Source of the DNA: Candidatus Rifleibacteriota bacterium
Lineage (GTDB): Bacteria; Muiribacteriota; Ozemobacteria; Ozemobacterales; Ozemobacteraceae
DNA: 64,000 nucleotides
Direction: 5' to 3'
Assembly: GCA_905236675.1 (NCBI GenBank)
Contig: CAJOND010000002.1
Location: 22,010-86,009, forward strand
Below, piece by piece: positions 39,681-63,555 of this stretch (the stretch's first letter is position 1; each line of letters opens with the position of its first letter). The notes beneath the pieces are model-generated. The model did no database searches. It was not told the DNA's origin and worked only from the letters and a program-made list of their open reading frames with translations. The position numbers and the translations under genes are program-made.

Positions 39681-39716
39681 GGATTGCCACGGCTAACGCC
39701 TCGCAATGACGATTGT
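39681..39716 (+). repeat. Short palindromic intergenic repeat (GGATTGCCACGGCTAACGCCTCGCAATGACGATTGT)
   Basis: ATTGC/GCAAT outer and GGC/GCC inner stems; 3' GCAATGACGATTGT recurs inside flhB. Confidence 0.7.
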
Positions 39717-42827: not shown

Positions 42828-42830
42828 GAA

Positions 42831-42899
42831 AACTGAAAATTGAAAACTGAAAATTGAAAAATATAAATCAACTTTCAGTTTTCATCTTTCAATTTTCAA
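42831..42899 (+). repeat. Imperfect inverted repeat of CTGAAAATTGAAA units downstream of flgE (possible terminator)
   Basis: AACTGAAAATTGAAAACTGAAAATTGAAA ... TTTCAGTTTTCATCTTTCAATTTTCAA. Confidence 0.6.
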
Positions 42900-44661: not shown

Positions 44662-45969
44662 GTGAGTGACGCTGTACTCTCGCAAGAAGAAATCAATGCT
44701 CTTTTAAATGGAAGTTTAGGAGGAGGAAGCTCGTCTATCGCAGATGCTTCTCCTGCTCCTAGTTCTGTACCACCTGCAGCTCCAATGCCGAGTAGTGCTG
44801 GTTCAGCAGCTAATTTTACTGAAGAAGACATTAACCAACTTACTGAAGTTGCTAAACTAGCTTTAGGTGCGACTTCTTCTGTTGTTCAAATGTTCGTAAA
44901 CCAGCAAAATGCTGAAATCGCCTTAGAACAGGTCAGAGTAATCTCTTATTCTGATTTGGTTAGAGAATGTGCCAGTGACGAATATTTGGTATTAAAAATA
45001 GCTTATATTGAAGGTTTTGATGGGCTTACCTATCTGGTCTTAAAAAAATCAACTGTTGCAATAATAGGTGATTTGGCTATGGGTGGTTCTGGCTTGAATG
45101 TGGAATTTCAAGAAATGCATATTTCTGCAAATCAGGAAATGCTTAACCAAATGATGGGAAAAACCACAACAAGTCTCGCTGAAATATTCAAAAAGCGCGT
45201 AGATATATCTCCGCCAACTCCAGAAATGATAAATTTTAGTAAGGGAACACCTGCTGACATGCCAGATTTTCATGAAGGAGCTGATTTCTTAAGAATAGGA
45301 TATAATCTTAAATTAGGTGATGTAGCTATTACTGAAATGATTCAGCTTTATCCTGCTGATTTTGCATTGCTTATGGCTCATGAACTAAATAAACCTGCCA
45401 AAGAACCTCCAAAACCTCAGGTTGCACCTCCTCCCCCTAATGCGGGAATGCCACCAATGATGGATCCAATGCAGCAACAGCCTATTCCAGGTCAAATACC
45501 TGGACAAATGCCTGGTATGATGCCTAATATGGGTATGCCAATGCCTGGTCAAATGCCTGGTATGATGCCTAATATGGGTATGCCAATGCCTGGTCAAATG
45601 CCTGGTATGATGCCTAATATGGGTATGCCAATGCCTGGTCAGATGCCTAATATGTTCCAAGGTTCACCTGCCGAATTCGGTATGTTACAAATGCCTGGTG
45701 GAATCGGTTTACAATCTAATATAGATTTACTTCTTGATGTTCCATTAGAAATAACCGTTGAATTAGGCAGAACTAGAATGTTAATAAAAGATGTACTTGA
45801 ATTAGGTATAGGTTCTGTAGTAGAGTTAAATAAGTTAGCTGGTGAATCAGTTGAAGTATTTGTTAATAATAAATTAATTGCTAAAGGTGAAGTAGTTGTT
45901 ATTGATGAAAACTTTGCGGTTCGCATTACAAATATAATCAATCCACAAGATAGATTACAGGCTCTCTAA
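44662..45969 (+). CDS. fliY: Flagellar motor switch protein FliY/FliN (CheC-like domain plus FliN SpoA domain)
   Basis: GTG start; LSQEEINALLNGSLGG motif; CheC-like middle; Met/Pro/Gly repeat linker; C-terminal DVPLEITVELGRTRMLIKDVLELGIGSVVELNKLAGE. Confidence 0.9.
   Translation: MSDAVLSQEEINALLNGSLGGGSSSIADASPAPSSVPPAAPMPSSAGSAANFTEEDINQLTEVAKLALGATSSVVQMFVNQQNAEIALEQVRVISYSDLVRECASDEYLVLKIAYIEGFDGLTYLVLKKSTVAIIGDLAMGGSGLNVEFQEMHISANQEMLNQMMGKTTTSLAEIFKKRVDISPPTPEMINFSKGTPADMPDFHEGADFLRIGYNLKLGDVAITEMIQLYPADFALLMAHELNKPAKEPPKPQVAPPPPNAGMPPMMDPMQQQPIPGQIPGQMPGMMPNMGMPMPGQMPGMMPNMGMPMPGQMPGMMPNMGMPMPGQMPNMFQGSPAEFGMLQMPGGIGLQSNIDLLLDVPLEITVELGRTRMLIKDVLELGIGSVVELNKLAGESVEVFVNNKLIAKGEVVVIDENFAVRITNIINPQDRLQAL
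45508..45642 (+). repeat. Tandem 45-bp repeat, 3 copies, encoding MPGMMPNMGMPMPGQ
   Basis: ATGCCTGGTATGATGCCTAATATGGGTATGCCAATGCCTGGTCAA starts at 45508, 45553 and 45598; only the last base of copy 3 differs. Confidence 0.95.
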
Positions 45970-48435: not shown

Positions 48436-49224
48436 ATGCCTATTACAGAAACCGCTTTTTTAAATGCAGTAGGATTATTTCTAATCGCTTTGGTAAGATT
48501 CAGCGGTTTCTTTTTAATAACCCCTGTTTTTTCTGATAATACCGCACCTACAAGAGTAAAAGCTGGCCTTTGCGCTCTATGTGCCGTATTAATACTTCCT
48601 CATTTAATATCTACAACAACTCTACCTAATTTAAGTGTAGTAGGATATGGGATAATGGTAATAAAAGAGCTAGCTCTAGGGTTTATGCTCGGTTTTATTG
48701 TATTATTTTTAAGTTCAGCATTAAGAATGGGCGGAAACCTTATAGGAATGCAAATAGGTTTTTCTTATGCCCAGGTTGCTGACCCTGGTTCTAATCAAAG
48801 CGTTGGAATTATTTCAGAACTGCTTCAACTTGCGGGTTCACTTCTTTTCTTGTTCTTTAACGGGCATTTAATAATTTTAAAATCATTTTTTCAAAGTTTT
48901 TCTATGGTGCCCCCTGCTGGTTTAATATTAACAAATAGCGTCATAGAAGAGGTGCTTCTATATAGCAGAATGATATTTATCTGTGGATTACAAATATCTA
49001 TGCCAATTATTGCAGTAGTTTTAGTCGGAGATGTAGCATTGGGCATAATTGCACGAACAGTTCCCCGAATGAATATTTTCCAACTTGGTTTTGCAGTAAA
49101 AATTATAGGTGGTTTGATTGTTATTTATTTCTTTATTAATTGCCTTGCTGATGTAATAAAAAGTTTATTAAATATAAGTCTTGAAGAAGTTATGCTCATT
49201 TTAAAGCATTTAGGTGGTACATAA
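48436..49224 (+). CDS. fliR: Flagellar type III export protein FliR
   Basis: FliR family: FLSSALRMGGNLIGMQIGFSYAQVADPGSNQS. Confidence 0.95.
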   Translation: MPITETAFLNAVGLFLIALVRFSGFFLITPVFSDNTAPTRVKAGLCALCAVLILPHLISTTTLPNLSVVGYGIMVIKELALGFMLGFIVLFLSSALRMGGNLIGMQIGFSYAQVADPGSNQSVGIISELLQLAGSLLFLFFNGHLIILKSFFQSFSMVPPAGLILTNSVIEEVLLYSRMIFICGLQISMPIIAVVLVGDVALGIIARTVPRMNIFQLGFAVKIIGGLIVIYFFINCLADVIKSLLNISLEEVMLILKHLGGT

Positions 49225-50489
49225 TGACTCAAGATATTAAACTATTATTCATGGGGAAGAAATGTATAGACAAGTCTCTGATTGCTTTGCAATCAGCCCC
49301 CTCAGTCTCACTAACGTTCGACAGCTTCCCAACCATTCGTGGGGGAGCTTCTATGGCTTGCAATGACGATTGTATCCAAGAATTAGATAATTATATCACC
49401 ATCTCCGACCTGCCCTTCGACCTACAGATGTTCGCTGGGGAAAAAACAGAAGAAGCAACAGAAAAACGTAAGAGAGATGCTATTCAAGAAGGAAATGTAG
49501 CGAAATCACAAGATCTTGGTTCTGTAGTTATACTTCTAGTTAGCTTTATTATGCTTCGTGCATACGGCGAAAATATGTATAGCCGCTGTGCTGACTATAT
49601 GAGATACACTCTTAGTCATGCTATTCATTCTCCTTTAACCTTTAACGAAGGTATTATTCTTATTGAGCAGTTTATTGTAGTAACCCTGACAGTAATCTTG
49701 CCATTTTTAATAGTCATTATGATTGCTGCAGTTTTTGCCAACGTCATTCAGGTAGGATTTCTATTTCGTTTTGATCCTATGACTCCGAATTTTGACAGAT
49801 TAAATCCTGTTTCAAATATTCAAAATATGTTTTCATGGAAACTTGTAGCCGAACTAGTTAAATCGATATTGAAAATACTAATAGTAGCCTATGTTCCATA
49901 TTCCACGATAAAAGGAGAATTAAGTGAATTTATAGGTTTTGTTAAAGCCAATCCACTACCCTCTTTTGGAAAAATTCTAGATACTTGCTATTATATGGGA
50001 ATTAAAATTATATTAATATTTCTTATCTTAGCTCTTGTTGACTGGGGATTTCAGGTTTGGCGTCATAATGAAGGTTTGAAAATGTCTAAAGAAGAAATAA
50101 AAGAAGAACATAAACAACAAGAAGGAGATCCTCACGTAAAACAAAAGATAAGAGAAAGACAGAGACAAGCTTCTTCACGTCGTCAAATGGAAGAAGTTCC
50201 AAAAGCTACAGTTGTAGTAACAAACCCAACCCATATAGCTGTAGCTCTTAAATATATTTATAAAGAAATGCCGGCACCAATAATTGTTGCTATGGGTACC
50301 GGACTTATTGCTCAGAAAATAAAAGATATAGCAAGAGAAAACGATGTTCCTATCGTAGAAAATAAGCCATTAGCTCGTGAAATGTTTAAAAAAGCTAATG
50401 TAGGTGACGAAATTCCTCCAGAACTATTTAATGCTGTAGCAGAAATAATTGGTCAGATTATGATGAAGAAAAATCAAAAAGCCGCTTAA
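49224..50489 (+). CDS. flhB: Flagellar type III export protein FlhB (start uncertain: 49224, 49353 or 49428)
   Basis: FDLQMFAGEKTEEATEKRKRDAIQEGNVAKSQDL; autocleavage motif NPTH (VVVTNPTHIAVALKY); about 65-aa N-terminal extension contains a repeat. Confidence 0.95.
   Translation: MTQDIKLLFMGKKCIDKSLIALQSAPSVSLTFDSFPTIRGGASMACNDDCIQELDNYITISDLPFDLQMFAGEKTEEATEKRKRDAIQEGNVAKSQDLGSVVILLVSFIMLRAYGENMYSRCADYMRYTLSHAIHSPLTFNEGIILIEQFIVVTLTVILPFLIVIMIAAVFANVIQVGFLFRFDPMTPNFDRLNPVSNIQNMFSWKLVAELVKSILKILIVAYVPYSTIKGELSEFIGFVKANPLPSFGKILDTCYYMGIKIILIFLILALVDWGFQVWRHNEGLKMSKEEIKEEHKQQEGDPHVKQKIRERQRQASSRRQMEEVPKATVVVTNPTHIAVALKYIYKEMPAPIIVAMGTGLIAQKIKDIARENDVPIVENKPLAREMFKKANVGDEIPPELFNAVAEIIGQIMMKKNQKAA
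49279..49374 (+). repeat. Palindromic intergenic-type repeat embedded in the flhB 5' coding region
   Basis: GATTGCTTTGCAATCAGCCCCCTCAGTCTCACTAACGTTCGACAGCTTCCCAACCATTCGTGGGGGAGCTTCTATGGCTTGCAATGACGATTGT; resembles 63489-63555 and shares GCAATGACGATTGT with 39681-39716. Confidence 0.8.
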
Positions 50490-58396: not shown

Positions 58397-59146
58397 TTAT
58401 CTTTTCAACAATTCGTCAGAACTGCTGATAGAAGGCAACTCTGTCTTAGAATCTGAATCAATTACTTTATGTAACTCAAAATTATCAATAATTTCGATTC
58501 TTTCTTTTAATTCACTCTTACTTATTTCTTTTGGTTCAGATTCATTTAATAATTCTATATTTTTTTCTTCTTCTTTTGGAGGATTAGCAGGAACCCATTC
58601 AGCCAGGTTTTCAGAAACTTTGTCTGTTGGTAAATGAATTGTCTGAGAAGTAGCTAAAACTTTAACGCCAGTTGTAGGAATCTTAATACAAAGCTGAACG
58701 AAATAATCACAATCACTGTCGTTAAGGCTTAAATACCAGTTATCGCAATTTTCTGGAAGTAAAATTTCAAAAGTATAATCTAAGCTTTTATTGAATACTT
58801 TAAGGAATAACTGAGTATGTGCATATTCAAAAGCTCCCAACTCAATCTCAAGCTTTTTTCGTTCAATAGAAGAAAATTCCCAATAAGCCCACACCCAATG
58901 TGGATCTCTTGCTTGAATTACAATTCTAGTTTCACCATATTCAGATGGCAGTTCACCCGTAAGAGATTCTTCTGTTATTACAACAGTAGATAGTTTTGGA
59001 GAATTCCCAACAATATCTACATTCTCAATTGTTGTATTTAATTGTGGGTATTTCTGAAGAATTCTTTCTGATTCTTCAGAAATAGGTTGATTAATTTTTA
59101 AATTTACAGGGATTGCGACACTATTAGCAATATCAATCCCACTCAT
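58397..59146 (-). CDS. DUF4912 domain protein
   Basis: ETRIVIQARDPHWVWAYWEFSSIERKKLE...LFLKVFNKSLDYTFEILLPENCDNWYLSL. Confidence 0.82.
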   Translation of the reverse strand: MSGIDIANSVAIPVNLKINQPISEESERILQKYPQLNTTIENVDIVGNSPKLSTVVITEESLTGELPSEYGETRIVIQARDPHWVWAYWEFSSIERKKLEIELGAFEYAHTQLFLKVFNKSLDYTFEILLPENCDNWYLSLNDSDCDYFVQLCIKIPTTGVKVLATSQTIHLPTDKVSENLAEWVPANPPKEEEKNIELLNESEPKEISKSELKERIEIIDNFELHKVIDSDSKTELPSISSSDELLKR

Positions 59147-60444
59147 TGTTTTTTTTTCTCTAAGCCTAGCAATTTATTCAGCTTATTATAATCTTCTATT
59201 TCTTTTTTACTAGTTGAAGATGCTTTTTCAGTTTTTCCACTTTTAGGAACTACATTTACATTTGCATCGTTATTTTTTGTTGGTCTGCCACGTTTCTTTG
59301 GAGCAACAACTACTGGCTTAGCATCTTTTTTAGGTTCAACCTTTGCAACTTTTTCTGCTGGTTCAGCAACTTTAGACTTAACTGGTCTGCCACGTTTCTT
59401 CGGGGCAACTGCTGTTGGCTTAGTTTCTTTTTTAGGTTCAACTTTTTCTATTTTTTCTGCTTTTGCAGCTACTTCAGCCTTGGCTGGTCTGCCACGTTTC
59501 TTCGGAGCTACAGCTGCTGGCTTTGTTTCTTTTTTAGGTTCAACCTTTGTAACTTTTCCTGCTGGTTCAGCAACTTTAGCCTTGGCTGGTCTGCCACGTT
59601 TCTTCGGAGCTACAGCTGCTGGCTTTGTTTCTTTCTTAGGTTCAACCTTGGCTACTTTTTCTGCTGGTTCAGCAACTTTAGCCTTGGCTGGTCTGCCACG
59701 TTTCTTAGGAGCTACTGCTGCTGGCTTTGTTTCTTTCTTAGGTTCAACCTTGGCTACTTTTTCTGCTGGTTCAGCAACTTTAGCCTTGGCTGGTCTGCCA
59801 CGTTTCTTTGGTGCTACAGCTGCTGGCTTTGTTTCTTTCTTAGGTTCAACCTTGGCTACTTTTTCTGCTGGTTCAGCAACTATAGCCTTGGCTGGTCTGC
59901 CACGTTTCTTAGGAGCTACTGCGACTGGCTTTGTTTCTTTCTTAGGTTCAACCTTAGCTACTTTTTCTGCTGGTTCATCAACTTCAGCCTTGGCTGGTCT
60001 GCCACGTTTCTTTGGTGCTACAGCTGCTGGCTTTGTTTCTTTTTTAGGTTCAACTTTTTCTGTTTTTTCTGTTTTTTCTGCTTTTGCAGCTACTTCAGCC
60101 TTGGCTGGTCTGCCACGTTTCTTTGGTGCTACAGCTGCTGGCTTTGTTTCTTTCTTAGGTTCAACCTTAGCTACTTTTTCTGCTGGTTCAGCAACTTTAG
60201 CCTTGGCTGGTCTGCCACGTTTCTTTGGTGCTACAGCTGCTGGCTTAGCATCTTTTTTAGGTTCAACCACTTTTTTATCTTTAATTTTATTTGCTAATTC
60301 TTTTTTTTCAATATTAAAACCTAATAATAATTTAATTATATCATCTTTGGAAGCCTTAGAAGAATAGTCTAAGCCTATAATTTGAGCAAAGGTAATAATT
60401 TCCGCCTTTGTCATTTTTTTTAATTTTTCTTCTGAAAATTTCAT
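59143..60444 (-). CDS. Rho_N/SAP-like plus ten-AT-hook repeat protein (histone H1-like composition)
   Basis: N-terminal KKMTKAEIITFAQIIGLDYSSKASKDDIIKLLL; ten PKKRGRP(A/V/T)K motifs; ATGA overlap with DUF4912 gene. Confidence 0.88.
   Translation of the reverse strand: MKFSEEKLKKMTKAEIITFAQIIGLDYSSKASKDDIIKLLLGFNIEKKELANKIKDKKVVEPKKDAKPAAVAPKKRGRPAKAKVAEPAEKVAKVEPKKETKPAAVAPKKRGRPAKAEVAAKAEKTEKTEKVEPKKETKPAAVAPKKRGRPAKAEVDEPAEKVAKVEPKKETKPVAVAPKKRGRPAKAIVAEPAEKVAKVEPKKETKPAAVAPKKRGRPAKAKVAEPAEKVAKVEPKKETKPAAVAPKKRGRPAKAKVAEPAEKVAKVEPKKETKPAAVAPKKRGRPAKAKVAEPAGKVTKVEPKKETKPAAVAPKKRGRPAKAEVAAKAEKIEKVEPKKETKPTAVAPKKRGRPVKSKVAEPAEKVAKVEPKKDAKPVVVAPKKRGRPTKNNDANVNVVPKSGKTEKASSTSKKEIEDYNKLNKLLGLEKKKQ
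59275..60267 (-). repeat. Tandem repeat of about 102 bp / 34 aa (VEPKKETKPAAVAPKKRGRPAKAKVAEPAEKVAK), 10 copies
   Basis: Counted directly from the translation. Confidence 0.93.
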
Positions 60445-63488: not shown

Positions 63489-63555
63489 GCAATGCTTTGC
63501 ATTGCTCCCCCCTCAGTCACTACGTGACAGCTCCCCCGCAAGCAGGGGAGCTTCT
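63489..63555 (+). repeat. Palindromic intergenic repeat (three stacked hairpins)
   Basis: GCAATG-CTTTG-CATTGC; GTCAC-TAC-GTGAC; CTCCCC...GGGGAG. Confidence 0.8.

Follow-up and report, generated by a model that had tools for sequence, protein, structure and literature searches.

At the junction of fliR and flhB in this Riflebacteria genome, the question arises of how the flhB product came to carry a leader of 64 residues, and from which codon that product is translated. The window (the whole 64,000-nucleotide stretch analysed) lies in a contig that is part of a 5.17 Mb MAG, labelled G000, and the genomes compared with it are likewise MAGs. FlhB relatives in named genomes assign it to Ca. Riflebacteria of ruminants; the closest are from the goat abomasum genome RGIG1619 (81% identity), RUG334 (75%) and a rumen MAG (74%). 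The TAA stop of fliR (49222-49224) shares one base with the flhB ATG (49224-49226), while the match to the FlhB model TIGR00328 covers residues 73-418 of the product (E = 3e-116) and alignments to FlhB chains in the PDB start at residue 72-73. A preliminary description of this DNA had proposed that an intergenic palindromic repeat is read in frame as the N-terminus of FlhB, and this was borne out: the open reading frame of 421 codons begins at the TAATG overlap and includes a repeat (about 49278-49374; approximately residues 15-50) that is shared with the intergenic segment 63489-63555. Exact copies of CCCCCTCAGTC lie at 49297-49307 and 63508-63518 (chance expectation 0.21 at ≤1 mismatch), and the likeness to 39681-39716 was likewise found, as CAATGACGATTG at both 49361-49372 and 39704-39715. 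About 65 extra residues had been claimed; the repeat-derived part (about residues 15-50) stands and the rest does not, since a leader of about 14-40 residues is present in relatives as well. Hairpin 2 of the flhB copy lacks a TGA, and the common form of this hairpin, GTCACTTCGTGAC, would place a TGA in the flhB frame. The features of the locus are collected in Table 1.

Table 1. Features of the fliR-flhB junction and related repeats, in window positions
Feature	Position	Strand	Basis or remark
fliR (flagellar export protein FliR)	48436-49224	+	TIGR01400 above cut-off; sequence
AGGTGG, ribosome-site-like, 6 nt 5' of the coupled ATG 49224	49212-49226	+	sequence
flhB, 421 aa; leader, residues 1-64; FDLQMFAGEKTE starts at residue 65	49224-50489	+	sequence
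Possible degenerate left arm of outer CGTC-type palindrome; TGTATAGACAAGTC vs consensus TGGATTGCCACGCC, 9/14; weak	49263-49276	+	by-eye comparison with full copies, e.g. L032, L033, L037
Hairpin 1, CTGATTGC-TTT-GCAATCAG	49278-49296	+	sequence; copy comparison
Conserved CCCCCTCAGTC	49297-49307	+	near-invariant columns across 35 copies
Hairpin 2 (GTCTCACTAACGTTCGAC), degraded variant	49305-49322	+	sequence; copy comparison
Hairpin 3, AGCTTCCC-AACCATTCGT-GGGGGAGCT; 3' arm is ribosome-site-like GGGGGAG	49323-49349	+	sequence; folding
Candidate internal start, in-frame ATG 5 nt 3' of GGGGGAG (49341-49347)	49353-49355	+	sequence
Outer palindrome, right arm (TGCAATGACGATTGTA)	49359-49374	+	- strand reads CGTCATTGC, the CGTC tag
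Three-hairpin copy without outer arms, intergenic	63489-63555	+	z -3.3
Outer palindrome alone, GGATTGCCACGGCTAACGCCTCGCAATGACGATTGT, intergenic	39681-39716	+	also listed as G000:C2:61691-61720
Predicted tryptic peptide SLIALQSAPSVSLTFDSFPTIR	flhB leader, within residues 2-43		
Predicted peptide MACNDDCIQELDNYITISDLPFDLQMFAGEK	FlhB N-terminus if the start is ATG 49353		

The repeat proved to be multi-copy, as its description had presumed. Within its own genome, BLAST gave 41 matches with the flhB copy as query and 47 with the intergenic copy 63489-63555, and a profile search, made with an RNAalifold model (R1) that captured hairpin 3 only, gave at least 127 copies. The copies share hairpin 1, CCCC(C/T)TCAGTC, hairpin 2, CAGCT(C/T)CCC, and hairpin 3 with the end GGGGGAGC; some of them, including that in flhB, are also flanked on one or both sides by the arms of an outer palindrome, GATTGCCACG..CGCAATGACG, which stands alone in the 39681 copy and in 20 solo copies in G000. 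The 205 parsed copies show 75 distinct forms of hairpin 2, and 3.97 of the five outer pairs of this hairpin are formed on average, against 3.37 when the 3' arms were re-dealt (maximum 3.5 in 200 deals); the two arms thus covary, and the fold is therefore maintained. The idea that copies inside genes have lost the hairpins was not supported (MFE difference, p = 0.13). The flhB element had no match at E ≤ 5 among the curated covariance models of Rfam. The neighbors of intergenic copies are unidirectional in 92 cases, convergent in 40 and divergent in 15. Within the explanation that we consider very probable as a whole, the family would comprise non-autonomous elements of about 65-110 bp with three hairpins, some of them nested in a CGTC-tagged REP-like palindrome.

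The exact inner pattern was present in all four genus genomes searched (86, 14, 92 and 56 copies), in none of 20 same-family genomes from other genera, and in one of 376 non-genus genomes (49 copies). The last, G323, is G+C-rich and lies outside the phylum; its 49 copies have the CCCCCTCAGTC..CAGCTCCCC core (L390-L397), which suggests that the palindrome may cross phyla. The outer pattern was found in 4/4 genus genomes and 20/376 others, nearly all of other phyla, and its reversed control gave zero matches. In these approximately 20 genomes, the GATTGCCACG..CGCAATGACG palindromes have identical arms and variable inner stems.

Comparison of flhB among five members of the genus bears on both the origin of the leader and the start codon. 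The residues preceding FDLQMFAGEKTE number 64 in G000, 67 in G003, 47 in Tb.RUG.116, 38 in G002 and 20 in G001. The leader material is the palindrome in G000, an AAGCT tandem plus a palindrome of another subtype in G003, and a AACACTTCC tandem of nine-base AACxCTTCC units in Tb.RUG.116 and G002, and there is no repeat in G001. In the flhB leaders of two close relatives (L092 and L097), the AACxCTTCC tandems are in frame (Asn-Thr/Pro/Ser-Ser) and unequal in copy number, possibly representing a length-variable FlhB tail. The hairpin-1 module and the 3' flank differ between the G000 and G003 copies, and the upstream CTATTATT..GGAAG is similar; the two may derive either from one ancestral insertion or from independent insertions. 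In genus-mates and other family members, about 14-40 residues precede FDLQ(M/L)FAGEKTE, for example MSEESYLNKYNNYIKVSEIP in an empty-site species. AlphaFold predicts the core of the protein confidently and residues 1-71 with pLDDT < 50, so that the extension is predicted to be disordered, although its alignment contained no homologues of the leader, which in itself accounts for part of this low confidence.

In all five genus members the flhB ATG overlaps the fliR stop, and all five leaders are open from this coupled ATG with both other frames closed (product of the leader shuffle probabilities 5e-6, with related leaders treated as independent). Because it is the only candidate common to all five, the coupled ATG 49224 is most likely the start from which the extension is translated, and of the two outcomes envisaged in the preliminary description the five-species comparison supports this one. 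In the other outcome, GGGGGAG from the repeat would act as a new ribosome-binding site and ATG 49353 as the start, all or part of FlhB would be made from that start independently of fliR, and the repeat would be an untranslated 5' segment. GGGGGAG (49341-49347) does precede an in-frame ATG at a good spacing of 5 nt, and REPs at N-termini are often extragenic ones drawn in through misannotation (PMC3733652). The N-terminal aroC copy in G000 resembles such an untranslated 5' repeat: it has a good ribosome site and an ATG 3' of the repeat, and on this ground it is probably a 5' UTR (it stays counted among the 32 in-frame copies given below). However, GGGGGAG in flhB is paired by folding as the 3' arm of the stable hairpin 3, ATG 49353 is owed to base changes peculiar to this copy (TTCTTCGG to TTCTATGG), and in G003 the interval from GGGGGAG to FDLQ holds no ATG, GTG or TTG. 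Nor is there any further ATG, GTG or TTG before FDLQ in Tb.RUG.116, G002 or G001, and the 43 codons upstream of ATG 49353 are open, as an untranslated leader need not be. Uncoupling by the repeat is thus not supported, and we regard it as unlikely.

Initiation still further downstream, at the ATG in LQMFAGEK, would leave the whole leader untranslated and FlhB of canonical length. The starts of the profile and PDB matches at residues 72-73 agree with this, as does the length of MFAGEKTE, which is like that of other FlhB N-termini. However, FDLQ(L/M)FAGEKTE is kept in other Riflebacteria, with a close version in Paenibacillus, and often contains no internal ATG; FDLQLFAGEKTE in other Riflebacteria has none at that point, and no ribosome site lies upstream of the LQMFAGEK ATG. 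In other genera the M of the motif is L, and therefore initiation should lie upstream of it. We consider a start at this ATG highly improbable. To the same slight degree we would credit the view that selection maintains the extension as a functional part of the N-terminus (for example, in the control of secretion or assembly) and that its likeness to the repeat is fortuitous: all genus members do retain an in-frame leader, but the leaders range from 20 to 67 aa, are unrelated in sequence across species except for the last 10 residues or so, and consist of different repeat classes in different species. Neither of the observations that the preliminary description had named as refuting it was made: the extension is not conserved in distant FlhB homologues, and the repeat is multi-copy.

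An in-frame position of the repeat is not peculiar to flhB. In three genomes, 32 of 227 copies, in both orientations, lie wholly within one open frame of an ORF of at least 200 aa (15/110 in G000, 12/56 in G003 and 5/61 in G002). The host genes encode PrmC, the HrpB helicase, a TrmH-type methylase, a TsaB-like protein, an ABC transporter, UvrD-like and RecC-like proteins, MBOAT enzymes, PglZ and HsdS. In PrmC, about 53 residues including the repeat exist in G000 only, and the site is empty in G001, G002, G003, G006 and G011, with a flank in G002 that is 98% identical; in its PDB homologue 1sg9, residues 169-228 correspond to a gap of about 5 residues. For HrpB, G003 and G002 have the filled site, whereas in G000, G001, G006 and G011 it is empty. 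The hrpB gene of G002 (L325 789-3638) has at least three repeat insertions, with two copies of opposite orientation back to back where G003 has one and one more around residue 530. Residues 323-360 of the ABC transporter have no counterpart in the PDB homologue 3qf4; the insertions carried by this gene differ between G000 and G002, and the segment is shorter in G001. Residues 54-97 of the G003 TrmH correspond to 14 residues in 7qiu. For the epimerase gene, the orthologue search for an empty site found no close orthologue.

No gene split by a copy was seen, the ten candidates being adjacent different genes on inspection. That the repeat is itself adapted to be coding was rejected: intergenic copies have 2.35 open frames per copy, against 2.54 in shuffles. 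Given this lack of any excess over shuffles, purifying selection on the host genes is the preferred reading of the preserved frame. In one G003 frame (L295 1059-2978), a repeat copy links a sugar-transferase domain to a family-2 glycosyltransferase domain, a possible repeat-mediated gene fusion.

Repeats of other kinds were also recognized in the window. In a minus-strand gene (59143-60444), a 102-nt repeat that encodes AT-hook-like KKRGRPAKA modules recurs in frame about ten times, and a FliY/FliN-like gene (44662-45969) has an in-frame 45-nt tandem repeat (GQMPGMMPNMGMPMP) at 45495-45654. An inverted repeat of GAAAACTGAAAATTGA units (42828-42897), between a flgE-like gene and the next gene, belongs to a different intergenic repeat class.

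CGTC-tagged REPs are known from five phyla (Di Nocera et al. 2013, PMC3733652). They have an 8-9 bp stem and a 4-5 nt loop, occur predominantly as head-head dimers, have no dedicated transposase, and include intragenic copies in helicase and repair genes, with a warning about N-terminal misannotation (PMC3733652). The Riflebacteria repeats resemble them in the outer palindrome CGTC-ATTGCGAG...GTGGCAAT-CCA (about 29-37 bp) and in the intragenic copies in HrpB, UvrD-like and RecC-like genes. The CGTC (or TGTC/CCTC) end tag is found as CGTCATTGCG in nested copies and in solo copies, of which G000 has 20, and the A-T/T-A first two pairs with a CCA-like tail as ATTGC...GCAATCCA in the 39681 and PrmC copies. 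The stem differs, having 5 bp, an interruption and then a variable stem and loop in place of 8-9 bp and 4-5 nt, and it sometimes encloses a second, larger palindrome. In Rickettsia, the RPEs are multi-copy palindromes both intergenic and in frame in unrelated housekeeping genes, N-termini included (PMC3733652, PMC10969869); RPE-4 and RPE-6 of R. conorii (CGTC-4 and CGTC-1) are CGTC-tagged REPs (PMC3733652), and in-gene copies are kept open and expressed in that species (PMC3733652; PMC10969869). The repeats studied here are similar to RPE-4, RPE-6 and the protein-coding RPE-1 in being multi-copy, intergenic and in frame, and absent from orthologues, a likeness of behaviour and CGTC tag alone; they differ in phylum and in their core, CCCCYTCAGTC..CAGCTYCCCC..GGGGGAGC.

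Enterobacterial RU/ERIC and ORF-bearing MITEs are likewise small and non-autonomous and can become fused in frame to genes (PMC2759123, PMC10969869), as can the repeats of Riflebacteria, in which, however, neither terminal inverted repeats of the MITE type nor target duplications were recognized. The bias of intergenic copies to unidirectional and convergent neighbors follows the REP pattern (PMC3733652), as in GTAG REP/BIME with RAYT, whereas the GTAG tag and a RAYT flanked by repeats are both lacking. A Y1/RAYT mobiliser was rejected: G000 has only a truncated IS200-like TnpA with no adjoining repeats and G003 has none, while repeat-free relatives carry intact Y1 transposases. The transposase search of G000 and G003 did not find a mobilising enzyme. 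None of the families found in this analysis matched the three-hairpin core, and among the papers accessible to the search none joined Riflebacteria to palindromic repeats, nor did we find an earlier account of such in-gene repeats in this phylum; a 2024 review of MITEs called the same mechanism of protein evolution in other prokaryotes merely 'conceivable' (PMC10969869). In short, intragenic palindromes that add protein segments are a known phenomenon, of which the three-hairpin family in Riflebacteria appears to be a new form. The flhB case alone is ordinary within the known kind, and the genus-wide pattern is more interesting.

We therefore favor, with considerable confidence, the explanation that flhB carries at its 5' end, in frame, one copy of a palindromic repeat of the REP/RPE kind that has spread through a Riflebacteria genus. 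Most copies are intergenic; the minority that entered genes would survive only if the ORF is not interrupted, through suitable length and frame, and if the encoded peptide lies in a flexible terminus, a linker or a loop. The insertion in flhB would have hit a short cytoplasmic leader, disordered and not conserved, between the coupled ATG and FDLQMFAGEKTE; the ribosome would start at that ATG and read through the repeat, by whose insertion FlhB would have gained a segment of about 35-45 residues, probably a neutral one.

More tentatively, and with rather less than even confidence, we suggest that this may be a recently active, protein-invading palindrome of a rumen phylum, with RPE-type CGTC ends, a nested second palindrome and no RAYT, which repeatedly adds in-frame segments to core genes such as flhB, prmC, hrpB, trmH and ABC transporters, with matched filled and empty alleles in sister species. 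Protein-coding palindromes are best known in Rickettsia, and here they would be found in rumen bacteria of another phylum. The filled and empty sister alleles would let the tolerance of repeat-encoded segments in core proteins be tested directly, and the same system would make the question of what moves CGTC-type REPs directly testable.
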